The notes below the pieces were generated by a model. The model was given only the letters and a program-made list of their open reading frames with translations, was not told where the DNA came from and did not search any database. A stretch of 64,000 nucleotides of DNA from Rhodococcus sp. CH91 (GTDB lineage: Bacteria; Actinomycetota; Actinomycetes; Mycobacteriales; Mycobacteriaceae). The stretch covers positions 124,001 to 188,000 of the forward strand of contig NZ_JAKFYR010000004.1 of NCBI RefSeq assembly GCF_022554085.1. The letters run 5' to 3'. A program made the position numbers and the translations under genes. How positions within the stretch are numbered: the first letter of the stretch is position 1; the number at the start of each line of letters is the position of its first letter. This document shows positions 42,746 to 63,278 of this stretch, piece by piece.

Positions 42746-42883
42746 TGTGCCCGGTTCCCCGCGAACGTGTTGGCCGATCCTCCAAACGCCCGGCGCCGCC
42801 GAGCAGCGAACGCTGTAGTCGCTGTGCCTCCCGGCCCGAGCGGCCCCCGGACAGGATGGTGGATACCGACGAAGGGAGATCCC

Positions 42884-43381: not shown

Positions 43382-43701
43382 ACAGTCTGAGCACCCACGT
43401 ACTCGACGCCACCTCCGGCTCCCCCGCCGCGGGGATGAGGATCACGCTCAGCGACACGGACGGCACGAGCCTGGGCGCCGGCGTCACCGACAGGGACGGG
43501 CGGCTGCGCGACATCACCGGTCCGCTGCCCGAGGGTGTCTACCGCCTCGTCTTCGCGACCGCCGAGTGGTTCGCGTCCCGCGCGATCGAGTCGTTCTACC
43601 CGGAGGTGACCGTGACCTTCCGAATCCCTCCGGGAGACGGCCATTTCCACGTCCCCCTCCTCTTGTCCCCCTATGCGTACTCCACCTACCGCGGGAGCTG
43701 A
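43378..43701 (+). CDS. uraH: 5-hydroxyisourate hydrolase UraH (transthyretin-like)
   Basis: A 107-residue transthyretin-related protein hydrolysing 5-hydroxyisourate to OHCU. Diagnostic features are the N-terminal THVLDATSGSPAAG (catalytic His), the central HFHVPLLLSPYAYSTYRGS ending with the family C-terminal YRGS. ATG 43378 overlaps the uraD stop by four bases. It is the middle gene of the urate operon. Confidence 0.95.
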   Translation: MNSLSTHVLDATSGSPAAGMRITLSDTDGTSLGAGVTDRDGRLRDITGPLPEGVYRLVFATAEWFASRAIESFYPEVTVTFRIPPGDGHFHVPLLLSPYAYSTYRGS

Positions 43702-43705
43702 AGCC

Positions 43706-44626
43706 ATGACCGAACTGACCGGCAAGATCGTCCTCGGACCACACCGCTACGGCAAGGCGGAGAACCGCGTCGTACGTATCGTGCGCGACACCGACCGGCA
43801 CGAGATCCGGGACCTCAACGTCTCGACTTGTCTACGAGGAGATTTCGACGCCGCGCACCTCGAGGGCGATCAGGGAACCGTGCTGCCGACCGACAGCCAG
43901 AAGCAGACCGTCTACTCGTACGCGAAGGAGAAGGGCGTCGAGTTCGTGGAGGACTACGGGCTCGCCCTCGCCCGCCACTTCGTCGACGACATCGAACCCG
44001 TGCGCTCTGCGCGCGTGGAGATCGAGGAGTACGCCTGGGAGCGTGTCGTGATCGACGGTACCGCCCACGACCACACCTGGACCCGTAAAGGATCCGAGAT
44101 CCGTACCGCTGCGATCACCGTCTCCGGGCGCGGATCCGATCGGCGCGAGTGGGTGATCGGTGGCCTGAAGGATCTCGTGGTGCTCAAATCCACCGGTTCG
44201 GAGTTCCAGGGTTTCCTCACCGACCCCTACACCGTCCTCGAACCCGCGACCGACCGCATCATGGCCACAAGCCTGGTCGCGCAGTGGCGGTTCACCACCG
44301 CGGACGTCGACTGGGACGCCACCTACACGGGCATCAGATCCACCCTCCTCGAGGTCTTCGCGGAGCTGCACTCGAAAGCACTGCAGCAGAGCCTGTTCGA
44401 GATGGGAAAGGCGGTCCTCGAACGCTATCCGTTCGTCGCGGAGATCCGGTTGTCCGCTCCCAACAAGCATCACTTCGCCTACGATCTCGCCCGGTTCGGT
44501 GTCGAGAACGCCGGTGAGGTCTTCCACGCCGACGACCGGCCCTACGGGCTGATCCAGGCGAGTGTGCTGCGTGAGGACGCACCGGACGCCGGTATCGCGT
44601 GGGAGCCTTACACCGGGGCGATGTAG
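43706..44626 (+). CDS. uox: Urate oxidase (cofactor-independent uricase)
   Basis: A 306-residue T-fold enzyme oxidising urate to 5-hydroxyisourate. Typical uricase stretches are VLPTDSQKQTVYSYA (Thr/Asp active-site region, about residues 58-72), STGSEFQGFLTDPYT (about 162-176) and the family signature PNKHHFAYDL (about 251-260). ATG 43706 follows GGGAG. It ends 4 bp from the convergent pucR gene. Confidence 0.95.
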   Translation: MTELTGKIVLGPHRYGKAENRVVRIVRDTDRHEIRDLNVSTCLRGDFDAAHLEGDQGTVLPTDSQKQTVYSYAKEKGVEFVEDYGLALARHFVDDIEPVRSARVEIEEYAWERVVIDGTAHDHTWTRKGSEIRTAAITVSGRGSDRREWVIGGLKDLVVLKSTGSEFQGFLTDPYTVLEPATDRIMATSLVAQWRFTTADVDWDATYTGIRSTLLEVFAELHSKALQQSLFEMGKAVLERYPFVAEIRLSAPNKHHFAYDLARFGVENAGEVFHADDRPYGLIQASVLREDAPDAGIAWEPYTGAM

Positions 44627-46254: not shown

Positions 46255-47628
46255 ATGTCCCCGCAGCCCGATGCCCTGCCCCTCGTGATCCGCGGCGCGC
46301 ATGTGGTGACCATGGACGGCACCCGGTCCGAGCACCGCGACGGGCACGTCGTCGTCGAGGGCAACCGGATCGTGACGGTCGGCGACGGGATGCCGGCCGG
46401 ATACGACGACGCCCGCGTCGTGGACGGAACCGGCTGTGTGCTCACCCCCGGCCTCATCAACACCCACCACCACCTGTACCAGTGGATCACCCGCGGACTC
46501 GCCGTCGACCACACTCTGTTCGAATGGCTCACCACGCTGTACCCGATCTGGGGTGGGATCGACGCCGACGCGGTGCACGTCGCGGCAAAGGGCGGACTGG
46601 CGCATCTCGCCCGCACCGGCTGCACGACCACCACCGATCATCATTACGTCGTGCCCCGCGAGGGAGGCGACGTGTTCGGCGCCGAGATCGCCGCCGCGGT
46701 GGAGGTCGGCATGCGGTTCCATCCGTGCCGGGGTTCGATGGATCTCGGGGCGAGCGCCGGCGGGCTGCCACCCGATCACATCGTCGAGGACCTCGACGCG
46801 ATCCTCGACGGCAGTCGCGAGGCGGTCGAGCGCTGGCACGATCCCTCGTTCGATTCGATGCTGCGTATCGCGCTCGCACCGTGCTCCCCCTTCTCGGTGA
46901 CCGGTGAGCTCCTGAAGCAGTCGGCCCTGCTGGCCCGCGATCTCGGGGTGCGGATGCACACGCACCTCGCCGAGACCCTCGACGAGGAGGAGTTCTGCCT
47001 CGAGAAGTTCGGATGCAAACCGGTGCAGTACATGGAGTCGCTGGGCTGGACCGGACCGGACGTCTGGTACGCGCACGCCGTGCATCTCGACGATCGTGAC
47101 ATCGGGGTGCTCGCCGCATCGGGCACCGGTGCGGCGCACTGCCCGACGTCCAACGCCCGGCTGGGCGCCGGGATCGCGCGAGCCGCCGACCTCTATGCCG
47201 CGGGCGTACCACTCGGGCTCGGGGTCGACGGGGCCGCGAGCAACGAGTCGTGCTGCATGCTCGAAGAGGCGCACCACGCAGCGCTGTTCGCGCGGGCACG
47301 CAGCGGACCCCGTGCCATGACGGTGCGTCAGAGCCTCGAACTCGCCACCATCGGAGGCGCACGAGTGCTCGGCCGCGAGAACGAGATCGGTTCCATCGAG
47401 ACCGGCAAGCTCGCCGACCTCGCATTGTGGCGGATCGACGGCCTCGCCCACTCCGGCATCACCGATCCGGTCGCCGCACTCGTCCTCGGCAGCATGCCTC
47501 CGCTCGAACTGTTGCTGATCGACGGACGCCGAGTGGTCGAGTCCGGTGAGGTGCGGACCGTCGACGAGGAGGTCGTGGCCCGGCAGGTCGCCGCGGAACA
47601 CGCCACGCTCGTCGCGAAAGCGGGGTGA
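46255..47628 (+). CDS. 8-oxoguanine/guanine deaminase-like amidohydrolase
   Basis: A 457-residue metal-dependent amidohydrolase (TIM barrel) of the guanine/8-oxoguanine/s-triazine deaminase group, releasing ammonia from an aminopurine. Metal ligands are visible: NTHHHLYQ (about residues 70-77), HTHLAETLDEEEF (about 241), HAVHLDD (about 277) and GVDGAASNES (about 323). The TRSEHRDGHVVVEG start and NTHHHLYQW region resemble 8-oxoguanine deaminases. ATG 46255 follows GAGGAG. Start of an operon with xanthine dehydrogenase genes: the product (xanthine or urate) would feed directly into them. Confidence 0.87.
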   Translation: MSPQPDALPLVIRGAHVVTMDGTRSEHRDGHVVVEGNRIVTVGDGMPAGYDDARVVDGTGCVLTPGLINTHHHLYQWITRGLAVDHTLFEWLTTLYPIWGGIDADAVHVAAKGGLAHLARTGCTTTTDHHYVVPREGGDVFGAEIAAAVEVGMRFHPCRGSMDLGASAGGLPPDHIVEDLDAILDGSREAVERWHDPSFDSMLRIALAPCSPFSVTGELLKQSALLARDLGVRMHTHLAETLDEEEFCLEKFGCKPVQYMESLGWTGPDVWYAHAVHLDDRDIGVLAASGTGAAHCPTSNARLGAGIARAADLYAAGVPLGLGVDGAASNESCCMLEEAHHAALFARARSGPRAMTVRQSLELATIGGARVLGRENEIGSIETGKLADLALWRIDGLAHSGITDPVAALVLGSMPPLELLLIDGRRVVESGEVRTVDEEVVARQVAAEHATLVAKAG

Positions 47629-47631
47629 CCC

Positions 47632-48474
47632 GTGGATCTGCACACCGTCACCGCCTACGACATCGCCTACAGCCGCGCCGATCTCGCACTCGGGCCCGGT
47701 GACGCCCTCGTAGGCGGCGGAACCTGGCTGTTCTCCGAACCACAGCCGCACCTGCACCGCCTGGTGGATCTGTCCGGACTGGGCTGGGATCCGATCACCC
47801 TGGGGCCGGACACCGTCGACATCTCGGCCACGTGCACGATCGAACGACTCTCCTGGCTGTCCGACCGCCACGACTGGGCATCGGCACCGCTGTTCCGGCA
47901 GTGCGCCGAGGCACTGGCGGCATCGTGGAAGATCTGGAAGCGCGCGACGGTCGGCGGGAACATCTGTCTGTCCTTCCCCGCCGGATCGATGATCTCGCTC
48001 GCCGTCGCTCTCGAGGCGGAGGCCGTGATCTGGACACCCGACGGCGACGAACGGCACCTGCCCGTCGCCGACTTCGTCACCGGAGTCGCGTCGAACCTTC
48101 TGGTGGCCGGTGAAGTGCTGCGCAGCATCCGGATTCCGGTGGAGGCCCTGCACTGCCGCACGGCCTTCCGGAAGATCGCCCTGTCACCCCTGGGCCGGTC
48201 CGGCAGCGTCGTCATCGGTCGCTGCGACGGCAATGCGAGTTTCACCCTCTCGGTGACCGCCGCGACCACGCGTCCCCACGTGCTGCGCTTCGCCCGGTTC
48301 CCCACGGCACGCGCGTTGTCCTCCGCCCTGGACGAGCTCGTCCCCGCCGAGGACTTCCACACCGACGCGCACGGCGCGGCGGACTGGCGCCGCGCGGTCA
48401 CCGCAGTGCTCGCGGAGGAGGTACGGGCCGAACTGTCGGCCGGGGAAGCGTCCGAGAAGGAGGGCCGACCGTGA
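47632..48474 (+). CDS. Xanthine dehydrogenase-type FAD-binding subunit
   Basis: A 280-residue medium subunit of a molybdenum hydroxylase. FAD-binding signatures are LVGGGTWLFSE (about residues 25-35), ATVGGNICLSFPAG (about 104-117) and the C-terminal CO_deh_flav_C domain. GTG 47632, four bases after the deaminase stop. It passes electrons from the fused large/small subunit (next gene, GTGA overlap) to NAD+ or another acceptor. Confidence 0.88.
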   Translation: MDLHTVTAYDIAYSRADLALGPGDALVGGGTWLFSEPQPHLHRLVDLSGLGWDPITLGPDTVDISATCTIERLSWLSDRHDWASAPLFRQCAEALAASWKIWKRATVGGNICLSFPAGSMISLAVALEAEAVIWTPDGDERHLPVADFVTGVASNLLVAGEVLRSIRIPVEALHCRTAFRKIALSPLGRSGSVVIGRCDGNASFTLSVTAATTRPHVLRFARFPTARALSSALDELVPAEDFHTDAHGAADWRRAVTAVLAEEVRAELSAGEASEKEGRP

Positions 48475-51170
48475 AACTCGTCGTCAACGGTAGTGAACTC
48501 GACACCGAACCCCGCCCCGGCCAGTGCCTGCGCACCCTGCTGCGCGAGCACGAGCACTTCGAGGTCAAGAAGGGGTGCGACGCCGGCGACTGCGGTGCCT
48601 GTTCGGTGTTGCTCGACGGCGAGCCGGTGCATTCCTGCGTGGTTCCCGCCGTTCGCGCAGCCGGACGGCAGGTCACGACGGTGGCGGGATTCGGCACACC
48701 GTCCGATCTCCACCCCCTGCAACGACGATTCGTCGACGCGGCCGGATTCCAATGCGGATTTTGCACCGCCGGCATGATCGTCACCGCCTCGACGTTCACC
48801 GACGACGACCTCGACGAGCTGCCGAACCGGCTGAAGGGCAATCTGTGCCGGTGTACCGGTTACCGGTCGATCGAGGACGCCGTGCACGGGCGGGTCAACG
48901 TGTCGGATGCGCACGGCCCGTCGTGCGGGCACTCGCAGCGTGCTCCCGCCGCGACCCGGGTGGTGACCGGCACCGAACCGTACACACTCGACACCTCGAT
49001 CGACGGACTGCTGCACATCGCCGTACTCGGCAGCCCGTACCCGCATGCACGCATCGTGTCCGTCGATGTCTCCGAGGCCGAGGCGCTGCCCGGCGTCCAT
49101 GCGGTGCTCTACCACCGCGATGCCCCCGGCATCGCGTATTCGACGGCGCGCCACGAGAACCGCACCGACGACCCCGACGACACCCGTCTGTTCGACCGGG
49201 TCGTGCGGTTCCGCGGACAGCGGGTTGCGGCGGTCGTCGCCGAAAGCCCTGCGCTCGCGCAACGGGCACTCGGGTCGATCCGCGTCGAGTACGAGGAGTT
49301 GCCCTTCGTCCTCGATCCGGATCGGGCCCGGCGGCCGGGTGCTCCGCTGCTGCACTCCGACAAGACCGCCGAGGCGCGCATCGCAGATCCGTACCGCAAC
49401 GTCGTCGCCGAACTCCACGGCGGCAGCGGTGACGTCGACGCCGCGGTCGCGTCCGCCGCAGCGGTCGTGCGGGGCCGCTGGCAGACGCAACGCGTCCAGC
49501 ACGCACATCTCGAAACCCATGGCGCCATCGGCCTTCTCGATGACACCGGGCGCCTCGTCATCCGCAGTTCCACGCAGGTTCCCTTTCTCGTGCGCGACGA
49601 GTTGTGCCACATCTTCGGACTCGATCGGGACCGCGTCCGGGTCCACGCCGCACGCGTCGGCGGCGGATTCGGCGCCAAGCAGGAGATGCTGGTCGAGGAC
49701 GTGGTCGCGGCAGCGGTCCTGAAGACCGGACGTCCTGTGCAATGGGAGTTCAGCCGTTCCGACCAGCTGACGGTCGCGCCGTGCCGGCATCCCATGCGGG
49801 TCGACGTGACACTCGCCGCCGACGCAGACGGCATCCTCACCGCACTGGCGATCGATGTGCTCGCCGATGCCGGCGCCTACGGCAACCACAGTCCCGGCGT
49901 CATGTTCCACGGCTGCACCGAATCGATCGCGGTGTACCGGTGCCCGAACAAACGCGTCGACGCCGAATCCGTGTACACCAACAACCGGCCGTCCGGTGCC
50001 TTCCGCGGCTACGGTCTCGGCCAGGTGATCTTCGCCGTCGAATCCGCGATGGACGAACTCGCCGTCGAGCTCGGTCTCGATCCCTACGAATTCCGCAGGC
50101 GCAATGTCGTGGTACCGGGCGACCCACTGGTCGCCGCGCATCCCGAAGGTGCCGACCTGATGTACGGCAGCTACGGCCTCGACCAGTGCCTCGGCCTGGC
50201 GCAACGGGCGATGTCCCGCAGCGGCGGGCGTCCCGCGCCGGCCGGCGACCACTGGCGCGTCGGTGAGGGCATGGCGCTGGCGATGATCGCCACCAATCCC
50301 CCGAACGGCCACATCTCCGACGCGTCGATCGAACTGTGTGCTGACGGGCGGTATCTCGCCCGCGTCGGCACCGCAGAGTTCGGCAACGGCACCACCACCG
50401 TGCACACCCAGATCGCCGCGACCGCACTCGGCACCACGCCCGACCGTGTCGTCGTGCACCAGTCCGACACGGACGTCACGACACACGACACCGGCGCGTT
50501 CGGCTCCTCGGGCACGGTGGTCGCGTCGAAGGCATTGCTGGCCGCATCGCAGGAGTTGCGAAGCAGGATGGCGAAGGTCGCCGCGGAGATCACCGGGACG
50601 GATCCCGATCGAGCGGAACTGAGGCCTGACGGTGTCCGATGCGGTGATCGCCTCGTCTCCGCGGCCGAGCTGCTGGAGGCCGGTGGTGGCGGGCGGTTAC
50701 GTGCCGAAGGCAGGCATGGTGGCCTGCCGCGTTCGCTGTCGTTCAACGTGCAGGCTTTCCGTGTCGCCGTCGACATCCGCACAGGTGAGGTGCAGATCCT
50801 CCGGTCGATCCAGGCCGCCGACGCCGGTACCGTCCTCAATCCCGAACAGTGCCGCGGGCAGATCGAAGGAGGCGCGGCACAGGCACTCGGGGCATCGATG
50901 TACGAGGAGATCCTCACCGACGACGAAGGCCGCGTGACGACGGATGTGCTGCGCAACTATCACATTCCGCAGTACGCCGACGTGCCGCGCACCGAGGTCT
51001 ATTTCGCCGACACCTACGACGAACTCGGTCCGATGGGAGCGAAGTCGATGAGTGAGGCACCGTTCAACCCCGTCGCCCCGGCCCTCGCGAACGCGGTCCG
51101 CAACGCGATCGGTGCGCGGCCGCACGAGTTGCCGCTCTCGCGCGACCGCATCTGGCGTCTGCTGCAGTAG
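48471..51170 (+). CDS. Fused [2Fe-2S]-molybdopterin xanthine dehydrogenase-type subunit
   Basis: An 899-residue fusion of the small and large subunits of a molybdenum hydroxylase. Residues 1-145: plant-type [2Fe-2S] (CDAGDCGACSV) and the second [2Fe-2S] domain (CGFCTAGM, CRCTGY). Residues about 165-899: Mo-cofactor domains with GGGFGAKQE, SGAFRGYGLGQ and a C-terminal catalytic Glu in GAKSMSEAP. The FAD subunit remains separate. Probable substrates are hypoxanthine/xanthine, given the purine operon. No xdhC-type maturation gene or nucleobase permease lies within this operon. Confidence 0.88.
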   Translation: MKLVVNGSELDTEPRPGQCLRTLLREHEHFEVKKGCDAGDCGACSVLLDGEPVHSCVVPAVRAAGRQVTTVAGFGTPSDLHPLQRRFVDAAGFQCGFCTAGMIVTASTFTDDDLDELPNRLKGNLCRCTGYRSIEDAVHGRVNVSDAHGPSCGHSQRAPAATRVVTGTEPYTLDTSIDGLLHIAVLGSPYPHARIVSVDVSEAEALPGVHAVLYHRDAPGIAYSTARHENRTDDPDDTRLFDRVVRFRGQRVAAVVAESPALAQRALGSIRVEYEELPFVLDPDRARRPGAPLLHSDKTAEARIADPYRNVVAELHGGSGDVDAAVASAAAVVRGRWQTQRVQHAHLETHGAIGLLDDTGRLVIRSSTQVPFLVRDELCHIFGLDRDRVRVHAARVGGGFGAKQEMLVEDVVAAAVLKTGRPVQWEFSRSDQLTVAPCRHPMRVDVTLAADADGILTALAIDVLADAGAYGNHSPGVMFHGCTESIAVYRCPNKRVDAESVYTNNRPSGAFRGYGLGQVIFAVESAMDELAVELGLDPYEFRRRNVVVPGDPLVAAHPEGADLMYGSYGLDQCLGLAQRAMSRSGGRPAPAGDHWRVGEGMALAMIATNPPNGHISDASIELCADGRYLARVGTAEFGNGTTTVHTQIAATALGTTPDRVVVHQSDTDVTTHDTGAFGSSGTVVASKALLAASQELRSRMAKVAAEITGTDPDRAELRPDGVRCGDRLVSAAELLEAGGGGRLRAEGRHGGLPRSLSFNVQAFRVAVDIRTGEVQILRSIQAADAGTVLNPEQCRGQIEGGAAQALGASMYEEILTDDEGRVTTDVLRNYHIPQYADVPRTEVYFADTYDELGPMGAKSMSEAPFNPVAPALANAVRNAIGARPHELPLSRDRIWRLLQ

Positions 51171-51462: not shown

Positions 51463-51594
51463 ATGAGCGGCACGATCTCGTCCACCCTCACGCTGGTAGG
51501 ACGATTCGATCCGGGAGCCGTGGCGCACTTCGTCTCCCCCGGCTCCGACGTCGTCCTCGATCTCACTTCGACCGAGAGGAACCCGGACCGATGA
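51463..51594 (+). CDS. Possible small leader protein (43 aa) coupled to the Rieske gene
   Basis: Frame ATG 51463 to TGA 51594, whose stop overlaps the Rieske start (ATGA). It reads MSGTISSTLTLVGRFDP and ends in a charged TSTERNPDR tail. There is no good ribosome site, and it may be the relic of a longer gene or simply the region that couples translation. No family known. Confidence 0.35.
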   Translation: MSGTISSTLTLVGRFDPGAVAHFVSPGSDVVLDLTSTERNPDR

Positions 51595-52232
51595 CCGTCT
51601 GGACTCCCGTCGCCCTCGCCCGCGACATCGAAACCGGCACCGCGAGCGGCACCACCGTCGACGGGCAATCCGTCGCACTGTGGCGCGGGACCGACGACGC
51701 CGTGCACGCGTGGGCCGACCGGTGCCCGCACCGCGGCATGCGCCTGTCCTTCGGATTCGTCCGCGAGGATCGCCTCGTATGCCTCTATCACGGTTGGCAA
51801 TTCGACGGTGCCGGTGCGTGCCGGCACGTCCCCGCCCACCCGCGAATGGAACCGCCGAAAACTGTGACACCGCACCGGTATCGAGCCGTCGAGAGCGCCG
51901 GGCTCGTGTGGGTGGCATCCACCGATGCCGAGGGCGCACCCGACGTTCCCGATACGGCGATCACCCCGGTGCGATCGGTGTGGATCGACGGCGATCGGGA
52001 CACCGCCTTCTCCCTCCTCGGCCCGGACGGAATCGACGCGGGCGCAGTCGTCACCGGCACGCTCGACGGAACCGACGTGATCGCCGGAATCCAGACGATC
52101 GACGCACAGACCACGGCCGTGCACGTCGTCGCCGCCGGCGTCGTGCCGGCCGCCACCGTGAACGCCCTCGTCCTCCGACTGCACGAACTCCGTGACTCCG
52201 TGTCGCCCACACGAGAGGTGACGACCGCGTGA
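51591..52232 (+). CDS. Stand-alone Rieske [2Fe-2S] protein
   Basis: A 213-residue cytosolic protein with a complete Rieske site: CPHRG (C45, H47) and CLYHGWQF (C64, H67), spaced as in oxygenase alpha subunits, followed by the SAGLVWVAS strand. The remaining about 100 residues have no mononuclear-iron motif and look like a degenerate oxygenase C-terminus (TGTLDGTDVIAGIQTIDAQT). It should act as electron donor subunit. The next gene is GST-fold; the catalytic partner lies four genes on (55519). ATG 51591 overlaps the 43-aa frame, and its own stop overlaps the GST start. Confidence 0.9.
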   Translation: MTVWTPVALARDIETGTASGTTVDGQSVALWRGTDDAVHAWADRCPHRGMRLSFGFVREDRLVCLYHGWQFDGAGACRHVPAHPRMEPPKTVTPHRYRAVESAGLVWVASTDAEGAPDVPDTAITPVRSVWIDGDRDTAFSLLGPDGIDAGAVVTGTLDGTDVIAGIQTIDAQTTAVHVVAAGVVPAATVNALVLRLHELRDSVSPTREVTTA

Positions 52233-52816
52233 ACGTTCCCGTCCTGCACGACTTCCCGCTCGACCCACGGTGCTACTCGGTGCGGCTGGCCCTGGCACTG
52301 CTCCACATCGAGCACGAGGTACGACCGGTCGACGTGATGCCGGGCCGCGAGCATCTCACCGGCATCTACCGTGACCTCACCCCGACCGGGTCGCTTCCTG
52401 TCTTCGAGACCGGAACGACGGCACTCGTCGGATCGGTCGACGTTCTCGTCCATCTCGCCGACGGAACCGAATGGGCAGCACCGACCACAGACTGGATCGA
52501 CTTCGCGACCGGACCGCTCGAGGAGTTCTACTCCTGCCGGGAACAAGCGCTGTACACAACGGATCCCGTCGATGTCACGGCTGCTCGCGCAGCGATGCGA
52601 ACTCTCGACGACCTGCTCGCCTGCCGCACGACGGACGAAGCGTGGGTGGCCACCGACCGGCCGACCGTCGCCGATCTCGCGCTGTTCCCCGCCGCCGCTC
52701 TGAGCCGGGACATCGGGATCGACCACGACCGCTACCCGGCTCTGCGCAGCTGGATCCGGCGCATCAAGCAGCGTTCCGGCTTCGTGGAGATGCCCGGTAT
52801 CCCCGTCTTTCCCTGA
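52229..52816 (+). CDS. GST-fold protein, probably structural
   Basis: A 195-residue protein with GST N-terminal thioredoxin-like and C-terminal helical domains. The cis-Pro is present (TGSLPVFE), but the usual glutathione-holding Glu-Ser pair is altered (LVGSVDVLVHL) and the catalytic Ser/Cys position reads DPRCYSVRLAL. The organism makes mycothiol (mshB in this window), so glutathione use is unlikely. GTG 52229 overlaps the Rieske stop. The analogy is NdmE, a GST-like protein needed to assemble a Rieske N-demethylase. Confidence 0.85.
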   Translation: MNVPVLHDFPLDPRCYSVRLALALLHIEHEVRPVDVMPGREHLTGIYRDLTPTGSLPVFETGTTALVGSVDVLVHLADGTEWAAPTTDWIDFATGPLEEFYSCREQALYTTDPVDVTAARAAMRTLDDLLACRTTDEAWVATDRPTVADLALFPAAALSRDIGIDHDRYPALRSWIRRIKQRSGFVEMPGIPVFP

Positions 52817-52849
52817 TCTTTCCGACTGCCCGTTCCGAAAGGACGCACC

Positions 52850-53350
52850 ATGCAACAGTCCACCGTCGACGCGGTGATCCGTGGCCTCGAGAAGGCCGGC
52901 GTCACCACCGTGTGCTACCTGCCCGACTCCTTGTTCAAGGAGCTCTACCCCGCCCTCGACGCCCACCCCACGATCCGCACCATCCAGGTCACCAACGAGG
53001 GTGAGGGCGCCGCGATCTGCGGCGGAATCTTCCTGTCCGGCACGCGCGCCGCGCTCATCATGGAGAACTCCGGTCTGCGCGCCTCCGTCGAACCCCTCGC
53101 CCGCATGGGCCTGGGAGCAGGCATCCCGGTGATCATGCTCATGAGCTATCGCGGCGAACTCGGTGAGAACAACTGGTGGGCCGTGCCGCACGGCATCACG
53201 ATGGAGCCGATCCTCGACGCTCTGCGCATCCCGTACCGCATCGTGCGGGAGGAGGACGCGATCGAACGCGCCATCCGCGACGCCTTCGCGTGGTCCTACT
53301 CCGCCTACCACCATTCCGCCATCGCCCTCGGAGGAGGACTCGTCCGTTGA
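52850..53350 (+). CDS. ThDP-dependent decarboxylase, alpha (PYR-domain) subunit, sulfopyruvate/phosphonopyruvate type
   Basis: A 166-residue protein equal in length to the ComD subunit of sulfopyruvate decarboxylase. It has the ThDP N-terminal (PYR) fold with the catalytic Glu in TNEGEGAAICGG (about residue 50) and MENSGLRASVEPL, PVIMLMSYRGE. It should form an alpha-beta enzyme with the next gene and decarboxylate a 2-oxo acid to an aldehyde. ATG 52850 follows GAAAGGA. The substrate is unknown. Confidence 0.85.
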   Translation: MQQSTVDAVIRGLEKAGVTTVCYLPDSLFKELYPALDAHPTIRTIQVTNEGEGAAICGGIFLSGTRAALIMENSGLRASVEPLARMGLGAGIPVIMLMSYRGELGENNWWAVPHGITMEPILDALRIPYRIVREEDAIERAIRDAFAWSYSAYHHSAIALGGGLVR

Positions 53351-53970
53351 CCACCATGCGCATGACCCGATTCGAGTGCATGCAGGCACTCGCCGCCCGG
53401 CTCGAGAACGAACTCGTCATCCTCTCCCTCGGCGCGAGCGTCGACGAGTGGTACAACGCCGCCCCGCACATGCGTGAGGCCAGCCTGTTCCAGCAGCAAC
53501 TCGGCTGCGTGACCCCGCAGGCGTTCGGCCTCGCGGTGGGCCTGCCGCACCGCCGCATCGTCTCGCTCGACACCGACGGCGGCATGCTGTTCAACCTCGG
53601 CATCCTCGCGACCCTCGCCAACGAGCAGCCCCGCAACCTGTTCACGGTGGTGTGGGACAACGAGTGCTATCAGTCCATCGGCGGCCCGCCGACCCACACC
53701 GCGAAGGGCAAGGTCGACATCGCCGCGATCGCCCGCGGCGCCGGAATCGAGAAGGCCTACACCGCAGAAACCCTCGAGGAGTTCGACAAGCACTGCGTGG
53801 CGGGACTGTCCGCCGACGAACCGTACGTACTCGTCGCGAAGGTCTCGAGTGTCGTGCAGCCGGGCATCAAGCGCAAGCACAGCGACGGCCGGGAAGACAA
53901 GTACATCTTCGTTCGCCACGTGGAGGCGACGGAGGGCATCACCATCATGGGGCCCAGTGAACACAACTGA
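53347..53970 (+). CDS. ThDP-dependent decarboxylase, beta (ThDP-binding) subunit
   Basis: A 207-residue ComE-like subunit. The ThDP/Mg motif is DTDGGMLFNLG...N (DTDGGMLFNLGILATL, about residues 77-92, with WDNECYQS). TTG 53347 is chosen: it overlaps the alpha stop (TTGA) and has GAGGAGGA eight bases upstream; ATG 53356 is the alternative. Its 3' end overlaps the GMC oxidoreductase start by 14 bp. Confidence 0.86.
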   Translation: MTTMRMTRFECMQALAARLENELVILSLGASVDEWYNAAPHMREASLFQQQLGCVTPQAFGLAVGLPHRRIVSLDTDGGMLFNLGILATLANEQPRNLFTVVWDNECYQSIGGPPTHTAKGKVDIAAIARGAGIEKAYTAETLEEFDKHCVAGLSADEPYVLVAKVSSVVQPGIKRKHSDGREDKYIFVRHVEATEGITIMGPSEHN

Positions 53971-55522
53971 CGGATTCGACTACGTCGTCGTCGGTGGCGG
54001 GTCGGCGGGGTGTGTCCTCGCCGCCCGTCTGACCGAGAATCCCGACACGTCCGTGCTGCTCCTCGAGGCAGGGCCGGACCACGCCGGCCTCCCGCCGATC
54101 GACGCGCCCGCGACCTGGGCGGGACTGCTCGGCGGCGACTACGACTGGGGGCACAGCTACGCCCCCAGCCCGTTGCTCGGCGGTCGCGCCGTGCCGATCC
54201 CGCGGGGCCGGGTTCTCGGCGGATCGAGCAGCATCAACGCGATGCTCTGGTATCGCGGGCACCCGTCGGACTACGACGCGTGGGAGACCGCCGGGGCGAA
54301 GGGCTGGAACTTCGCGTCGCTGCTCCCCTACTTCCGCCGCGCCGAGGACTGGGAGGGCGGCGCCACCGCCTTCCGCGGTGCCGGAGGTCCGGTGCGCATC
54401 ACCCGGCCCACCGACCCGCACCCGATCGCCACCGGATTGCTCGACGCCGCATCCGAACTCGGCATGCCGGTACTCGACGACTGCAACGGGCCGGAGATCG
54501 AGGGCGCCGCCCTGGCGAACCTCACGATCGACGACGGTCACCGCGTCAGCACGGCTCGCGCCTATCTCGATCCGGCGCGGACCCGGCCCAACCTCACGGT
54601 CCGCACCGACGTCACCGTGTCGGAGTTGATCTTCGACGGCCACCGGTGCGTGGGTGTGCGGTACCGCCGCCCCGGCACGGACAGCGCAGGCACGGACATC
54701 GTGGTCCGTGCCGACGCCGAGGTGCTGCTCTGCGCCGGTGCGATCTCGAGCCCGCACCTGCTGCTGCTCTCGGGGATCGGCGACCCTGCACACCTGCGGG
54801 AACACGGCCTCCCCGTGCACACCGCGCTGCCCGGCGTCGGACGCAACCTCCAGGACCACCCCCTCCTCATGGGCGTGAACTTCCGGTCCCGCGGCCCACT
54901 CGGCCCGGTACGCGACAACGGCGGTGGCGCGATCCTGAACTGGCGTTCGGACCCCTCACTGGATATGCCCGACCTGCACGCCTTCGTCGTCCAGGGTGCG
55001 CACGCCACCCCGGAGGTCGCCGCACGCTACGACGTCACCGGCGACGTCTTCGCGATCTCCCCCGGTCTCATGCGTTCGTACAGCGTCGGACAGCTGACCC
55101 TGCGATCCGCGGATCCGGGCACGGCACCGATCGTCGACCCACGCTATCTGTCCGATCCTCGCGACCTCGACGCTCTCGTCGCCGGCCTCGGCCGCATCTT
55201 CGACCTCGCAACGACGTCCGCTCTGCAACGCCTCGTGGAGGCACCCGCCGCGCCCGACCGCCGGCCGACGCGCACCGAAGCCGAAGCCTTCGTCCGCACG
55301 AGCTGCGCGACCTTCTTCCACACCGCCGGCACCTGCGCGATGGGCGTGGGCCCGGATTCGGTCGTCGACCCGGACCTGCGTGTGTACGGCGTGGACGGGC
55401 TCCGCGTGGTGGACGCGTCCGTCATCCCCGTGCTCCCGTCGTGCAACACCAACGCCCCCGTGATCGCGCTGGCCGAACGCGCGGCCGCGTCGATCACCGG
55501 AACCGAGAGGAAACTGCCGTGA
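53957..55522 (+). CDS. GMC-family FAD oxidoreductase (choline dehydrogenase/alcohol oxidase-like)
   Basis: A 521-residue flavoenzyme oxidising an alcohol to an aldehyde. The N-terminal dinucleotide motif is VVVGGGSAGCV (about residue 13), then GRVLGGSSSINAM (GMC signature 1, about 80), GAISSPHLLLLSGIG (signature 2, about 260) and the catalytic His region FFHTAGTCAMG with SCNTNAP near the end. GTG 53957 overlaps the previous gene. Its product would suit the aldehyde dehydrogenase two genes later. Confidence 0.9.
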   Translation: MNTTDGFDYVVVGGGSAGCVLAARLTENPDTSVLLLEAGPDHAGLPPIDAPATWAGLLGGDYDWGHSYAPSPLLGGRAVPIPRGRVLGGSSSINAMLWYRGHPSDYDAWETAGAKGWNFASLLPYFRRAEDWEGGATAFRGAGGPVRITRPTDPHPIATGLLDAASELGMPVLDDCNGPEIEGAALANLTIDDGHRVSTARAYLDPARTRPNLTVRTDVTVSELIFDGHRCVGVRYRRPGTDSAGTDIVVRADAEVLLCAGAISSPHLLLLSGIGDPAHLREHGLPVHTALPGVGRNLQDHPLLMGVNFRSRGPLGPVRDNGGGAILNWRSDPSLDMPDLHAFVVQGAHATPEVAARYDVTGDVFAISPGLMRSYSVGQLTLRSADPGTAPIVDPRYLSDPRDLDALVAGLGRIFDLATTSALQRLVEAPAAPDRRPTRTEAEAFVRTSCATFFHTAGTCAMGVGPDSVVDPDLRVYGVDGLRVVDASVIPVLPSCNTNAPVIALAERAAASITGTERKLP

Positions 55523-56406
55523 CGACCAGCACCACCACACGCTGCGACGACCCCGTCGTGCTGAACCAGTGGTATCCGGTCTGTTCCGAACAGGAGGTCG
55601 CCGAGGCGGCCGTGTACACCCGCCTCCTCGGCGCCGACGTCGAATGCACCGTCGACGCCGACGGTGTGCCGACGGTGCGCGACGGGGACGACACTCTTCC
55701 GGTGCGACGCAGATACGGTTTCGTGTGGACCACTCTCGGCACTCCCGAGAAGGACGTCTTCACCATCGACGAGGCCGACGAGGCCGACCGGCGCTACGTG
55801 CCGTGCGGATGGATGACGCTCCGCTCGTCTCCCGGCCGGGTGGTGGAGAACTTCCTGGACATGGCGCACTTCCCGTTCGTGCACACAGGAATTCTCGGCG
55901 GCGAGGCGGCCACGGAGGTCGCGCGGTACACATGGGAGATCCGGCGGGAGACCGACGAGGTGTGGGCCACCGACTGCACCTTCTTCCAGCCGCAGATGTC
56001 CGCAGCCTCCGAGGGGTCGTTCGCGCACCTGACCTATCGGGTTCCGAACCCGTATCAGGTGATGCTGTACCGGATTTCGCCTGCAGACCCCACCCGTCTC
56101 GACGCGATCGCCCTGTTCGTCCAGCCGATCGACGAAACAGTTTGCCGCGCACAGCCGGTGATGTATCTCGTCGACCCGGATTCCTCGCACACCGAGCTGG
56201 TCCAGTTCGAGCAGGTGATCTTCCTGCAGGACCGCATCATCGTCGAGAATCAGCGGCCGCTGCTGCTCCCCCTCGATCCGCGCGACGAGATCCCGACCCG
56301 CGCCGACGCCTCCTCGGTCACCTACCGACGCTGGCTCAAGGCCAAAGGCCTGCGCTGGGGCGCCGTGCCGCTCCTGCCCGCCGGTACCCGAGGAGCAGAC
56401 GCGTGA
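55519..56406 (+). CDS. Rieske oxygenase catalytic subunit lacking its Rieske cluster segment
   Basis: A 295-residue homologue of VanA-type oxygenase alpha subunits. It starts like them (LNQWYPVCSEQEV), but the segment that normally holds CPHR and C-x-x-H is missing: residues about 40-62 jump from RLLGADVECTVD to PVRRRYGFVWTTLG. The mononuclear-iron site is intact: ENFLDMAHFPFVH (D114, H117, H122) and the later Asp in LQDRIIVENQ. Electrons must come from another polypeptide, most simply the stand-alone Rieske protein at 51591. GTG 55519 overlaps the GMC stop. Comparable arrangement: NdmC. Confidence 0.88.
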   Translation: MTTSTTTRCDDPVVLNQWYPVCSEQEVAEAAVYTRLLGADVECTVDADGVPTVRDGDDTLPVRRRYGFVWTTLGTPEKDVFTIDEADEADRRYVPCGWMTLRSSPGRVVENFLDMAHFPFVHTGILGGEAATEVARYTWEIRRETDEVWATDCTFFQPQMSAASEGSFAHLTYRVPNPYQVMLYRISPADPTRLDAIALFVQPIDETVCRAQPVMYLVDPDSSHTELVQFEQVIFLQDRIIVENQRPLLLPLDPRDEIPTRADASSVTYRRWLKAKGLRWGAVPLLPAGTRGADA

Positions 56407-57896
56407 CCACCGCAGCACTCCCCCGCCACTGCGCCGGCTTCCTCCGCACCGGGACGAAATCCCTGCTCGTCGACGGCCGCTGGATCCCCGGCTCGGGAGT
56501 CCCCTTCGAGACGGTCGATCCGGCGACCGACCTGCCGCTCGCCACACTCGCCTCGGCGGGACCGGACGAGGTGGATGCCGCTGTCACCGCGGCCCGCGGG
56601 GCCCTGCGGCAGGAGTGGGCGTCGTGCACTCCCGCGGCCCGGGCACGCGTGTTGTGGCGGATCGCGGAGGTGATCGACGCACACGCCGACGAACTCGCCG
56701 AACTCGAGAGCCTCGACCAGGGCAAGACCTGGGCCACCGCACGATTCGCGGAAATACCCTCGGCAGCAGAGCAGTTCCGCTACTACGCGGGCTGGGCGAC
56801 GAAGATCACCGGCATCACCGTGACACCGTCGATCACCTACGCGCCACCCGGGAAGAAGGTCCTCGCGCACACTGTCCGGGAACCGGTCGGTGTGGTGGCG
56901 GCGATCGTGCCCTGGAACTCCCCGTTGCTCATGGCGGCGATGAAGCTCGCCCCGGCACTCGCCGCCGGATGCACCGTCGTCCTCAAACCGGCCGAGGACA
57001 CCTCCCTCACCGCGCTTCGGCTCGGTGAACTGCTCGCGGAGACCGGGATCCCCGCCGGGGTCGTGAACATCGTGACCGGCGGCGGTGCGGTCGGACGCAT
57101 GCTGGCCGAGCATCCCGGCGTGGACAAGGTGACGTTCACCGGATCCACGGAGGTCGGCAGGAAGCTCGTCGCGTCGGCGGGAGCGGGCCGTCTCGCGCGA
57201 CTGACCCTCGAACTCGGCGGAAAGTCACCGGCCGTCGTGTTCGGCGACACCGATCTGCCCACGACGATCCCCGGCCTGGCCCGCGGCATCTTCGCCAACT
57301 GCGGACAGGTGTGCGTCGCCGGTTCGCGTGTCTATGCCGAGCGGCGCGTCTACGAGCAGGTGGTGGACGGCCTGGCCGCGGCGGCGAAGTCCTTGCGGCT
57401 CGGGCACGGTCTGGACGAGGACACCGATCAAGGTCCGCTGGTGAGCCGAAGGCACCGAGCGAGAGTGGCGTCCTACGTCGACGACGGTGCACGAGCGGGT
57501 GCGAGCATCGTGACCGGGGGCCGCATGGTGGGCGAGACGGGTAGCTTCTACGAGCCGACCGTCGTGGTCGACGCGGCGCCCGATCTGCCTCTGATGCGCG
57601 AGGAGATCTTCGGCCCGGTCGTGACCGTGACTCCCTTCGACGACCCCGGCGAAGTGATCGCGTGGGCGAACGACACCGACTACGGTCTCGCCGCGAGCGT
57701 GTGGACGTCGGATCTGTCGCGGGCCCACCGGGTGTCCGGCGCGATCCGCGCCGGCACCGTGTGGATCAACTGCCACTCGTACTTTTCTCCGGAGTTGGTC
57801 AAGGGTGGCCACAAGCAGTCGGGCTGGGGATACGAGAACGGTGCTGCGGGCCTGGAGAACTATCTCGAGACCAAGACCGTGTGCATGTCGGTCTGA
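56403..57896 (+). CDS. Aldehyde dehydrogenase
   Basis: A 497-residue NAD(P)+-dependent ALDH. Key motifs are PWNSPLLMAAMKLAPAL (cofactor site), FTGSTEVG, the Glu in LELGGKSP (about 263) and the nucleophile Cys in NCGQVCVAGSR (about 301), then EEIFGPVV. GTG 56403 overlaps the oxygenase stop. The 3' end overlaps the convergent 2OG oxygenase gene by 37 bp. It presumably oxidises an aldehyde made by the GMC or ThDP enzyme, or formaldehyde-like demethylation product. Confidence 0.92.
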   Translation: MTTAALPRHCAGFLRTGTKSLLVDGRWIPGSGVPFETVDPATDLPLATLASAGPDEVDAAVTAARGALRQEWASCTPAARARVLWRIAEVIDAHADELAELESLDQGKTWATARFAEIPSAAEQFRYYAGWATKITGITVTPSITYAPPGKKVLAHTVREPVGVVAAIVPWNSPLLMAAMKLAPALAAGCTVVLKPAEDTSLTALRLGELLAETGIPAGVVNIVTGGGAVGRMLAEHPGVDKVTFTGSTEVGRKLVASAGAGRLARLTLELGGKSPAVVFGDTDLPTTIPGLARGIFANCGQVCVAGSRVYAERRVYEQVVDGLAAAAKSLRLGHGLDEDTDQGPLVSRRHRARVASYVDDGARAGASIVTGGRMVGETGSFYEPTVVVDAAPDLPLMREEIFGPVVTVTPFDDPGEVIAWANDTDYGLAASVWTSDLSRAHRVSGAIRAGTVWINCHSYFSPELVKGGHKQSGWGYENGAAGLENYLETKTVCMSV

Positions 57897-59680: not shown

Positions 59681-61249
59681 ATGGTGACAGCAACTTCGCA
59701 CACGGGCAGCACCATCGGCTCGGCATCCGCAACACACGGCCCCGCCGAGGGCGTCGTGATGCGCGGTATCCACCGGTCGTTCGGAGACAACCACGTCCTC
59801 CGCGACGTCTCGCTGCACGTCCGGCCCGGCGAGGTCTACGCCCTGCTCGGAGAGAACGGTGCCGGCAAGTCGACGCTGATGCGCATCCTCACCGGCCTGC
59901 TCCCCCCGGACTCCGGCTCCGTGGAGGTCGACGGGAATACGCTCGCCGAGGGGGGAAACGACCGGATCGCCATGGTTCATCAGCATTTCATGCTCGTGCC
60001 CGGCATGACGGTCGCCGAGAACTTCCTGCTGGGTCGCACTCGCGGAGTCGTCGGGCGAAAGCAATTGCGGCGCACCGAATCGGAAATCTCCGCGCTTGCG
60101 GACGAGACCGGGCTCGCGTGCGATCCGGCAGCACGGGTGGAGACTCTGTCGGTGGGCGAGCAACAGCGGGTCGAGATCCTGCGCGCCCTGCATCTGGGCG
60201 CCGGATATCTACTGCTCGACGAACCCACCGCGAACCTCGCTCCCGCAGAGGTCCACTCCCTCCTCGCGCGGATCCGCAGCCTCGCCGCGGACCGCGGCGT
60301 CGGAATCGTGCTCATCACCCACCACCTCGAGGAGGTCCTCGAAGCCGCCGACCGGGTCGGTGTGCTGCGAGGCGGACAGCTCGTCGCCGAGAAGCCGATC
60401 CGGGACAGCGGAACCCCCGTCACCACTGCCGAACTCGCGCGCGACATGGTCGGACGCGATGTGGGACTGGGAATCCGCCGGGCCGCAACCGAACCACCCG
60501 GCGCCCGCATGCTCGAACTCGTCGGGGTGTCGGTACCCGGACAACTGCACGATGTGACCTTGCGCGTCGCAGCCGGGCAGCTCGTCGCGGTCGCCGGCGT
60601 GGAGGGCAACGGCCAGTCCGCGCTCGAGGACGTGCTCTCCGGCCTCGCCCCCGACGCCACCGGCGCGGTCTGCGTGGCCGAACGCGAGATCGACGCCTCC
60701 ACACCGCGCGCCGTGCGGGAGGTGGGGGTCGGCATCGTCCCTGCGGATCGCTATTCCCGCGGACTCGTCAAGTCGCTGGCGATCGACACCAATCTCGCCG
60801 TCGACAGCTACACCACCGCGCCGCTGGCACGCCGCTGGGGACGTTTGTCACGCAGCGCGATCCGCGCACGTGCCGAACGCATCATCGAGGCCCTTGCGGT
60901 GAAGGCACAGAGTCCGCGCACGCTCGCCGGAACCCTGTCCGGAGGTCATGCCCAGCGCGTGGTCCTCGGCCGTGTGCTCGACGGTGCCCCCCGCGTCCTC
61001 GTCGTCGCACAACCGACCCGCGGTCTCGACATCGGTGCGACCGAGTTCGTGTGGGACACCCTCGTCGAACACCGCTCACGGGGCGCCGCGATCCTGCTCG
61101 TCTCGTCCGATCTCGACGAGATCTGCAGTCTCGCCGACCGGGTCGTGGTGCTCTACCGCGGGCGTGTCGTCGCCGAGTTCGACGAGGGCCCGTTCGACCG
61201 GGAAGCCATCGGTTCTGCGATGGGTGGATTCCAGGAGGCCGCGGCATGA
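59681..61249 (+). CDS. Nucleoside-type ABC importer, double ATP-binding subunit (NupA/YufO-like)
   Basis: A 522-residue protein with two nucleotide-binding domains. NBD1 is canonical (GENGAGKST, LSVGEQQRVE, LLDEPTANL). NBD2 is degenerate: Walker A VEGNGQSAL and Walker B VLVVAQPTRG (DEP changed to AQP), with LSGGHAQR, the usual form for carbohydrate/nucleoside importers. ATG 59681. First gene of a four-gene operon (ATP-binding, two permeases, BMP lipoprotein), as in bacterial guanosine/nucleoside importers. Confidence 0.9.
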   Translation: MVTATSHTGSTIGSASATHGPAEGVVMRGIHRSFGDNHVLRDVSLHVRPGEVYALLGENGAGKSTLMRILTGLLPPDSGSVEVDGNTLAEGGNDRIAMVHQHFMLVPGMTVAENFLLGRTRGVVGRKQLRRTESEISALADETGLACDPAARVETLSVGEQQRVEILRALHLGAGYLLLDEPTANLAPAEVHSLLARIRSLAADRGVGIVLITHHLEEVLEAADRVGVLRGGQLVAEKPIRDSGTPVTTAELARDMVGRDVGLGIRRAATEPPGARMLELVGVSVPGQLHDVTLRVAAGQLVAVAGVEGNGQSALEDVLSGLAPDATGAVCVAEREIDASTPRAVREVGVGIVPADRYSRGLVKSLAIDTNLAVDSYTTAPLARRWGRLSRSAIRARAERIIEALAVKAQSPRTLAGTLSGGHAQRVVLGRVLDGAPRVLVVAQPTRGLDIGATEFVWDTLVEHRSRGAAILLVSSDLDEICSLADRVVVLYRGRVVAEFDEGPFDREAIGSAMGGFQEAAA

Positions 61250-62319
61250 GCACGGGCACCCTCATGCCCGCGACCACACCGGCCCCCGACCCCGTCGCAC
61301 CGCCGAGGTTGCGGCACGCCGCCGCCCTGGGAGTTCCCCTGCTCGCGGTGTTCGTCGGCCTCGCTGTCGGCGCCGTACTCATCCTGCTGGCCGGAGGCGA
61401 TCCCGGACAGGCGTACGCGACCATGCTGAACGCCGCTCTCGGCGGCGACACGCAACTCGGACGGCTGCTCACCGGGATGACCCCCCTGGTGCTCATGGGT
61501 CTGGGCTACGCGATCGCGTACCGGACCGGCTTCATCACCATCGGCGCGCAGGGGCACTACGACGTCGGCGCGATCACGGCCGCCGCCGTCGTGCTCAGCA
61601 TGCCGCTGGGAACCGGCTGGGTCGCGATACCGGTCGTGGCGGTGACCGCCGCCGCGGCCGGCGCCTGCATCGGTGGCATCGCGGGTGTGCTGAAGGCACG
61701 GCTCGGGGTGAACGAGATCATCTCCTCGTTGATGCTCAACTACCTCGTCTTCTACGCACTGGCGTGGGCCGTGCGCAAACCCCTCGCCAATCCCAACGGC
61801 TTCACCCCGGAATCCGAGCGGATTCCGGACTGGGCCGTGCTCGCGACGATCCCCGGCACCCGCATCCACATCGGTGTGTTCGTGGCCGTTGCCGCCGTGC
61901 CGCTCGTCTGGTGGCTCATGCGCTCCACCCGGTTCGGCTTCGCCTCGCAGATCGTCGGGGAAAGCCCCACCGTCGCAGCGGCGAACGGCATCTCCGTCGG
62001 CCGCACCATCGTCACCTCGGCGCTCGTCAGCGGTGCCCTGGGCGGCATCGCCGGTGCCATCATGCTGGTGGGCAGTGAGTTCCGCCTCTCCCTCGCGGTG
62101 TCCTCCGGGATCGGCTTCACCGCCATCGTGGTGGCACTGCTCGGGAGGCGTAATCCGTTCGGCATCGTGCTCGCCGCAGCCCTGGTCTCCGGTCTGACGC
62201 TCGGCAGCCAGGCCGTCCAGCGCACCCAGGAGATCCCCGCATCCATCGGCACCGTCGTGCAGGCCGTGATGATCCTGACGGTGCTGCTCGCCAACCGATT
62301 CGTGGAGCGTGCGCGATGA
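61246..62319 (+). CDS. ABC importer permease 1 (NupB/YufP-like)
   Basis: A 357-residue integral membrane protein of the BPD_transp_2 family, about nine helices. The family signature GFITIGAQGHYDVGAI (about residues 92-107) and GVNEIISSLMLNYL are typical of nucleoside importer permeases. ATG 61246 overlaps the ATP-binding gene's stop; its own stop overlaps the second permease. Confidence 0.9.
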   Translation: MSTGTLMPATTPAPDPVAPPRLRHAAALGVPLLAVFVGLAVGAVLILLAGGDPGQAYATMLNAALGGDTQLGRLLTGMTPLVLMGLGYAIAYRTGFITIGAQGHYDVGAITAAAVVLSMPLGTGWVAIPVVAVTAAAAGACIGGIAGVLKARLGVNEIISSLMLNYLVFYALAWAVRKPLANPNGFTPESERIPDWAVLATIPGTRIHIGVFVAVAAVPLVWWLMRSTRFGFASQIVGESPTVAAANGISVGRTIVTSALVSGALGGIAGAIMLVGSEFRLSLAVSSGIGFTAIVVALLGRRNPFGIVLAAALVSGLTLGSQAVQRTQEIPASIGTVVQAVMILTVLLANRFVERAR

Positions 62320-63278
62320 ACTGGTCCGACGTCCTGGGCGTGAGCGCACTCGTTCCCTTGCTCACCGCAGCCCTTCGCCTCGCCGTTCCGATCATCCTCG
62401 CCGCGGCCGGCGCCTGCCTCGCCGAACGATCCGGTCTGATGAACCTCGGCATCGAGGGCCAGATGATGGTGGGCGCGGTCACGGCGTTCGTGACCGTCCA
62501 CGCCACCGGGCAACCGATGCTCGGCGCGCTCGCCGGCGCCGCTGCGGGCCTGGCGACCGCCGCCGTCGTCGGCTACCTGACGATCACGATGGCCGTCGAT
62601 CAGATCATCACCGGAATCTCGGTGGTCATCCTCGGCACCGGTCTCGCATCCTTCCTGTATCTGCAGGTCTTCGGCCTGACCGGGACTCCTCCGCGAATCC
62701 AGGGCAGTACGCCGCTCGACATCCCGGTGCTGTCCGACATCCCGGTGCTGGGACCGATCCTGTTCTCCCAGTCCCCACTCGTCTATCTGGCCCTGGCATC
62801 GGTCGTCGCCCTGTGGTGGATCCTGTCCCGCACGGCCTTCGGCCTGTCGATCCGGGCGGCCGGCGAGAGCCCGGACGCCGCCGACTCCGTCGGCGTCTCC
62901 GTTCCCCGGACCCGGTGGCTCACCCTGCTGATCTCCGGCGCCGCGGCCGGTGCGGCCGGTGCGCTCGTCATCGACGGTCTGGGCTTCTTCCAGGACGGCA
63001 TCACCGGGGGTCGCGGTTGGATCGCGCTCGGCGTCGTGATCCTGGCACGCTGGAATCCTCTCGGCGCCGTGGCCGGTGGTTTCATGTTCGGACTCGTCGA
63101 CGCCTTCCAGCTGCGCGTGCAGGCGGCCTCGGGCGGCCAGGCCACCTCGGTGCCGTACGAGCTGTTCCAGGCGATGCCCTACGTCGTGACCCTGCTCGCC
63201 GTGGTCGCGACCACCGTGTGGTTCTCCCGCAACACCGCCCCCACGGCGCTGGGCGTCCCCTTCGTTCCCGCCAAATAG
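62316..63278 (+). CDS. ABC importer permease 2 (NupC/YufQ-like)
   Basis: A 320-residue BPD_transp_2 permease, about eight to nine helices. LMNLGIEGQMMVGAV (about residues 43-57) is the family signature, followed by VDQIITGISVVILGTGL. ATG 62316 (ATGA overlap). It forms the channel with permease 1. Confidence 0.9.
   Translation: MNWSDVLGVSALVPLLTAALRLAVPIILAAAGACLAERSGLMNLGIEGQMMVGAVTAFVTVHATGQPMLGALAGAAAGLATAAVVGYLTITMAVDQIITGISVVILGTGLASFLYLQVFGLTGTPPRIQGSTPLDIPVLSDIPVLGPILFSQSPLVYLALASVVALWWILSRTAFGLSIRAAGESPDAADSVGVSVPRTRWLTLLISGAAAGAAGALVIDGLGFFQDGITGGRGWIALGVVILARWNPLGAVAGGFMFGLVDAFQLRVQAASGGQATSVPYELFQAMPYVVTLLAVVATTVWFSRNTAPTALGVPFVPAK

Follow-up and report, generated by a model that had tools for sequence, protein, structure and literature searches.

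We propose that three genes in a 64,000-nucleotide stretch of the 4.89-Mb genome of Rhodococcus sp. CH91 (contig NZ_JAKFYR010000004.1, positions 124,001 to 188,000 of the forward strand; hereafter, the window) very probably encode the parts of a single Rieske oxygenase related to the demethylase NdmCDE but fully split. The three products are a stand-alone Rieske protein (RSK), a protein with a glutathione S-transferase fold (GST), and a mononuclear-iron catalytic subunit (ROX). Their genes belong to a nearly gapless series of seven plus-strand genes at 51591-57896, ordered RSK, GST, TPPa, TPPb, GMC, ROX, and ALDH, in which TPPa and TPPb are the two halves of a thiamine-diphosphate (TPP) enzyme, GMC is a GMC-family oxidoreductase, and ALDH is an aldehyde dehydrogenase (Table 1). 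Four-base overlaps of stop and start codons, read from the sequence, join RSK to GST, GMC to ROX, and ROX to ALDH. From comparative and structural evidence we infer how RSK, GST, and ROX would work together, that is, complex formation, the electron path, the adaptor role, the reaction, and the substrate.

The two metal sites lie on different proteins. RSK matched the Pfam Rieske family (PF00355, E = 1.7e-23) and no catalytic family, and its cluster ligands C45, H47, C64, and H67 showed no variation among 49 aligned sequences including that of the window. In a larger set, all 76 RSK rows carried the CxH...CxxH pattern and none carried the iron-site motif [DE]xxHxxxxH. ROX matched VanA_C (E = 1.2e-17) and no Rieske family at E 0.001; D114, H117, H122, and D238, the last of which is likely the third iron ligand, were invariant in the corresponding 49-sequence alignment. 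DxxHxxxxH was present in all 94 rows of the ROX set, 90 of which had no Rieske pattern, the other four being single-chain enzymes. That set, composed of the window protein, 89 short locus proteins (five of them NdmC-like), and four single-chain oxygenases shortened by start-codon choice, was selected by length (filters were 200–250 amino acids for RSK, 270–312 for ROX, and 190–225 for GST, and rows running off locus ends were dropped). A firmer figure comes from the best 80 loci (L026–L105) of a scan of genome contigs with ROX, the true number of loci being at least 80: 78 of them encode a short ROX lacking Rieske ligands, and in the other two ROX fell outside the length filter (a run-on frame in L047, two pieces in L103). 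An earlier note, made from the window's letters, had described RSK as having a perfect Rieske site without an iron site and ROX as the converse; both descriptions stand, and the ligand positions that it gave are exact.

Structural models were consistent with a reciprocal relationship between the two proteins. The predicted structure of RSK had a predicted local distance difference test score (pLDDT) of 92.8 and superposed on whole single-chain oxygenases, for example NdmA, over 205–206 residues (root-mean-square deviation, rmsd, 3.1–3.4), while the ROX model superposed on SxtT over 270 residues (rmsd 2.0–2.1). Among solved structures, SxtT and GxtA ranked first for RSK as well as for ROX, with NdmA and NdmB among those that came next; all of these carry both redox centres on one chain, whereas here they are on two. 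Residues ~18–71 of ROX form an empty Rieske-domain shell, and the N-terminus of ROX matched that of RSK by profile comparison. The models thus show what appears to be, in each protein, a shrunken relic of the domain that the other supplies, which fits the earlier proposal of two complementary truncated oxygenase copies. That note had also taken the RSK tail for a decayed oxygenase domain, a view we abandon since the tail is conserved, with H178 and R201 invariant across the 49 sequences, and mostly ordered (pLDDT >90).

Invariant residues also mark GST (P38-G39 and M188-P189-G190). The same genome encodes MshC above its cut-off (739.8 versus 485.1 bits), in agreement with the earlier statement that the host makes mycothiol, and for this reason a non-catalytic role of GST is favoured. 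GST had been placed between RSK and ROX; it does directly follow RSK, but TPPa, TPPb, and GMC also precede ROX.

The closest described system is NdmCDE, the 7-methylxanthine N7-demethylase of Pseudomonas putida CBB5. In the passages of PMC4408171 that deal with it, NdmCDE is called very unusual, is known from caffeine degradation, and acts as a complex in which NdmC has no Rieske cluster, an extra cluster resides on NdmD, and the GST-like NdmE is postulated to align them; homologues of ndmCDE are reported there mainly from Sinorhizobium and Mesorhizobium. RSK, GST, and ROX share with this system a catalytic subunit without a Rieske cluster, a Rieske cluster on another protein, and a GST-like adaptor, and each is homologous to its NdmC-, NdmD-, or NdmE-like counterpart on four plasmids. 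Among these plasmids, pTmex-577K of P. putida carries an apparently complete ndm cluster in which NdmC-, NdmD-, and NdmE-like genes are consecutive, and C-D-E sets were also found on plasmids of Klebsiella pneumoniae and Sinorhizobium meliloti; the Ndm names on the plasmids follow from gene order and size as given in the same passages of PMC4408171, without comparison with the CBB5 sequences. On S. meliloti pSymA (L110, 11998-16258), two tandem NdmC-like genes precede one NdmD-like and one NdmE-like gene.

In profile comparisons, RSK, tail included, aligned with columns 4–242 of the NdmD-like proteins (99.9%, E = 2e-37), and GST aligned with NdmE-like proteins over 204 columns (100%, E = 8.4e-56, in a comparison run without control GST families). 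A single-pair BLASTP search of RSK against NdmD covered the Rieske part only (36% over 118), so the homology of the tails rests on the profiles and the alignment. In a tree of catalytic domains, all 53 Rieske-less rows fell on one side of a branch (Shimodaira–Hasegawa-like approximate likelihood ratio test support, SH-aLRT, 97), within which NdmC-type (88) and split-type (81) proteins formed two groups; this tree was a quick build from a hand-picked subset of rows and has long branches. Over its columns, the ROX of the same-genus genome G135 matched that of Rhodococcus sp. SMB37 without a difference, in line with a host in Rhodococcus or close to it. In a tree of Rieske domains, RSK (SH-aLRT 95) and NdmD (98) each formed one group. 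Together, the profile alignments and the catalytic-domain tree bear out the choice of NdmCDE as precedent. The two systems differ in that the plasmid NdmD-like proteins unite a Rieske domain and a reductase in one chain (588 amino acids in L108 and L110), whereas RSK ends after its tail and contains no reductase domain, and in that genes for the TPP enzyme, the GMC oxidoreductase, and the aldehyde dehydrogenase accompany most split clusters. Judged by sequence, NdmD has the appearance of an RSK fused with a reductase, and splitting and fusing could have occurred in either order.

Across genomes, the three genes occur together. The best 80 loci belong mostly to Rhizobiales and Rhodobacterales, with some Rhodospirillaceae, two Rhodococcus, and one Frankiales bin, and the split architecture with intact ligands occurs across two phyla and more than 20 named genera. 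RSK was found in 75 of these loci, GST in 72, and both in 71; nine loci lack one or both, several of them at contig or stretch ends, and a search of their genomes for RSK gave one match in each (a partial one in G401). In a host-family sample of 401 genomes drawn evenly from a larger group, ROX was matched in 22 (E 1e-10), eight of them close (at least 73% identity) and 14 at 27–36%. We compared presence and absence in 23 genomes, namely the eight with a close ROX, 11 of the same genus without ROX, and four with distant relatives. All eight ROX-bearing genomes have RSK (at least 53% identity) and GST (at least 55%; in two pieces in G223), while both were absent from the 11 ROX-less genomes at E 1e-20 and 1e-15, so that the co-conservation on which the earlier note had staked its proposal was found. 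Of the four genomes with distant ROX relatives, three had RSK matches, only at those relatives, and none had GST.

Gene arrangement is also conserved. Of 78 same-strand RSK-GST pairs, a count that includes four NdmD-NdmE pairs and two pairs with ROX between, 70 have stop and start codons that share 1 or 4 bases. Plasmids of Rhizobium leguminosarum Ta6 and Rhizobium sp. CCGE532 carry the order RSK-ROX-GST-amidohydrolase-BMP transporter, in which no two adjacent genes are separated by more than 25 bases; this order mirrors the adjacency of ndmC, ndmD, and ndmE. Mirror-tree correlations over 58 loci, with TPPa and GMC removed, were 0.66 for RSK-GST, 0.61 for GST-ROX, and 0.41 for RSK-ROX; because the loci are related, these values are only suggestive.

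Some genomes combine one RSK with more than one ROX. Two ROX matches (E 1e-40) and one RSK match (E 1e-20) were found in all 11 records examined, which comprised ten genomes and one plasmid record (where the plasmid sequence alone was searched) and were picked for two ROX genes already seen. With the two halves on separate proteins, a single RSK-GST pair could work with two different ROX subunits. In R. tumorigenes, the second ROX (L106, 3787-6019) adjoins a guanine deaminase (419.9 bits versus an NCBIfam cut-off of 375.4) and a BMP-type ABC transporter, a cluster that would suit the release of guanine from an N-substituted guanine.

Several observations weigh against assigning RSK, GST, and ROX to a single NdmCDE-like enzyme. 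Where RSK and ROX are both plus-strand genes (61 loci), RSK ends 2.5–8.1 kb ahead of ROX. With NdmD-like reductase domains as query (E 1e-4), no NdmD-type reductase was found in the window, and in the 80 loci there was only a weak 24% match at the far end of L041. The Rieske-domain tree, a quick build with long branches, misplaced one single-chain row across the outgroup branch, so that it does not cleanly unite RSK and NdmD in one clade. Finally, the TPP enzyme, the GMC oxidoreductase, and the aldehyde dehydrogenase of most loci are not explained by simple N-demethylation.

The strongest competing explanation, which we nevertheless regard as unlikely, is that RSK is a freely diffusing Rieske-type ferredoxin that serves ROX and perhaps other enzymes and is not a built-in subunit. 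RSK is indeed small and separate, like CarAc and the ferredoxin of naphthalene dioxygenase, it has no linked reductase, and one copy accompanies two ROX genes. However, those ferredoxins, at 103–115 amino acids, have no room for a tail domain, whereas RSK ends in a conserved, oxygenase-like tail, which can be aligned with NdmD as well. The Rieske domain of RSK scored much higher against oxygenase alpha subunits (87.5 bits with SxtT) than against the ferredoxins (27.7 and 23.6 bits). Moreover, ROX itself holds no Rieske cluster, so the protein that supplies one must have direct access to the catalytic iron.

We consider it more improbable still that RSK-GST and ROX perform different steps of the same catabolic cluster, a view that draws on the distance between the genes and on the other genes that fill it. 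It is countered by the agreement of presence and absence in 19 of 19 genomes (eight with and 11 without ROX), by the adjacency of all three genes on the two Rhizobium plasmids, by the account in PMC4408171 of NdmD, the fused counterpart, working with NdmC and NdmE, and by the fact that neither RSK nor ROX carries both metal sites. That a single-chain oxygenase has decayed, or been misassembled, into useless pieces accounts for the half of the usual sites missing from each protein, yet is hardly credible given the intact ligands throughout the genera noted above and the invariant residues in both relic regions. A frameshift or assembly error, against which the earlier note had advised checking ROX, is ruled out by the recurrence of the same short protein in 78 of the 80 loci.

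In Rieske oxygenase trimers, electrons reach the iron of each subunit from the cluster of its neighbour. If RSK, GST, and ROX form one enzyme, a reductase encoded elsewhere would pass electrons to the [2Fe-2S] cluster of RSK, which would dock on ROX in the place of a neighbour's Rieske domain and hand electrons to the mononuclear iron for O2 activation and substrate hydroxylation. The relic domains probably preserve the head-to-tail packing of such trimers. The GST-like protein would act as a structural adaptor holding RSK on ROX, as is proposed for NdmE in the relevant part of PMC4408171. Candidate electron donors exist in the host, whose genome encodes 11 NdmD-type reductase proteins (E <=1e-10), none on the contig of the window. 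An NdmD-like reductase adjoins 12 of 17 short distant-relative loci (L009–L025); nine of the 17 were checked as single-chain.

The reaction would likely be the oxidative N-dealkylation, or hydroxylation, of a substituted purine, the product of which may feed guanine or 8-oxoguanine, xanthine, and urate. A substituted purine is inferred from the kinship with NdmC and the surrounding purine genes; we hold a purine to be somewhat favoured as substrate, and give N-dealkylation about an even chance. The retention of TPP, GMC, and ALDH from Rhodococcus to rhizobia indicates that the removed group is larger than methyl or that further steps follow. Sulfopyruvate decarboxylase-like enzymes suggest a keto-acid intermediate, and no convincing pathway through one was found. 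Removal of a cytokinin side chain, an idea that would fit the GMC and ALDH genes, gained no support from a literature search and is not claimed here.

We lean towards an evolutionary scenario in which both polypeptides go back to one alpha subunit that was duplicated, each copy then losing what the other kept, the dummy domains keep head-to-tail packing, RSK and the GST-fold adaptor are shared by interchangeable catalytic halves, and the result is a widespread class. Oxygenases that lack a Rieske cluster and come with a GST-like partner and a separate Rieske protein abound in Rhizobiales and Rhodobacterales and are found in some Actinomycetota; the division between two genes appears to extend to numerous bacteria of soil and sea. 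For a stand-alone Rieske protein in such a setting, our literature search showed nothing beyond NdmCDE, and an earlier mention in Summers 2013 is possible. If the proposal is true, the system would represent a naturally modular oxygenase, its catalytic half being exchangeable, and would offer a simpler setting for learning the role of the GST-like subunit and a testbed for electron transfer between subunits that are different chains. It would also suggest that NdmD arose by joining RSK and a reductase, or the reverse, and would point to a purine-side-chain pathway of which we found no description.

Table 1 Genes of the window discussed in the text, with occurrence among the 80 loci where determined
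Feature	Position	Strand	Description
Hydroxyisourate hydrolase	42856..43701	+	C-terminal part of frame; TIGR02962 above cut-off
Urate oxidase	43673..44626	+	TIGR03383 above cut-off
8-oxoguanine deaminase	46255..47628	+	NF006055, 659 bits versus cut-off 532
Xanthine dehydrogenase-type molybdenum hydroxylase, flavin adenine dinucleotide (FAD) subunit	47632..48474	+	
Same hydroxylase, molybdenum and [2Fe-2S] subunit	48471..51170	+	
RSK	51591..52232	+	213 amino acids; Rieske [2Fe-2S] protein (residues ~1–120) with conserved C-terminal mini-domain (~124–204)
GST-fold protein, NdmE counterpart	52229..52816	+	Pfam GST_N and GST_C matches
TPPa	52850..53350	+	Thiamine-diphosphate enzyme N-half, sulfopyruvate decarboxylase alpha-like, below family cut-off; 61/80 loci, 76–95% identity
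TPPb	53347..53970	+	Thiamine-diphosphate enzyme C-half; start TTG 53347 or ATG 53356 (scanned from 53356); 61/80 loci, 78–91% identity
GMC-family oxidoreductase	53957..55522	+	65/80 loci
ROX	55519..56406	+	295 amino acids; mononuclear-iron catalytic subunit without Rieske cluster, NdmC relative
Aldehyde dehydrogenase (ALDH)	56403..57896	+	51/80 loci, 61–80% identity
Isopenicillin-N-synthase-like iron oxygenase	57860-58852	-	Downstream of ALDH
ABC transporter, ATPase and two permeases	59681..63278	+	Pfam ABC_tran and two BPD_transp_2

The neighbour counts in Table 1 are affected by some loci being a second, guanine-deaminase type of cluster and by others ending early. The two-gene TPP enzyme (52850-53970), which resembles sulfopyruvate and phosphonopyruvate decarboxylases, was the most conserved neighbour, with median identities across loci of 83–84% for TPPa and TPPb versus 62% for ROX and 41% for RSK. 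The deaminase and the molybdenum hydroxylase of the window (46255-51170), in contrast, had median identities of only 29% and 32% to most related loci, and such neighbours therefore seem to have been exchanged while RSK, GST, and ROX stayed. A minus-strand XRE-type regulator lies downstream, its cupin match weak and below cut-off. The isopenicillin-N-synthase-like oxygenase recurred in nine of the 80 split-type loci, and genes annotated as 2-oxoglutarate and iron-dependent oxygenases adjoin two NdmC-type clusters; sites of one or the other kind outside the window include L107 5450-6448, L109 12441-13418, and L082 6595-7488.

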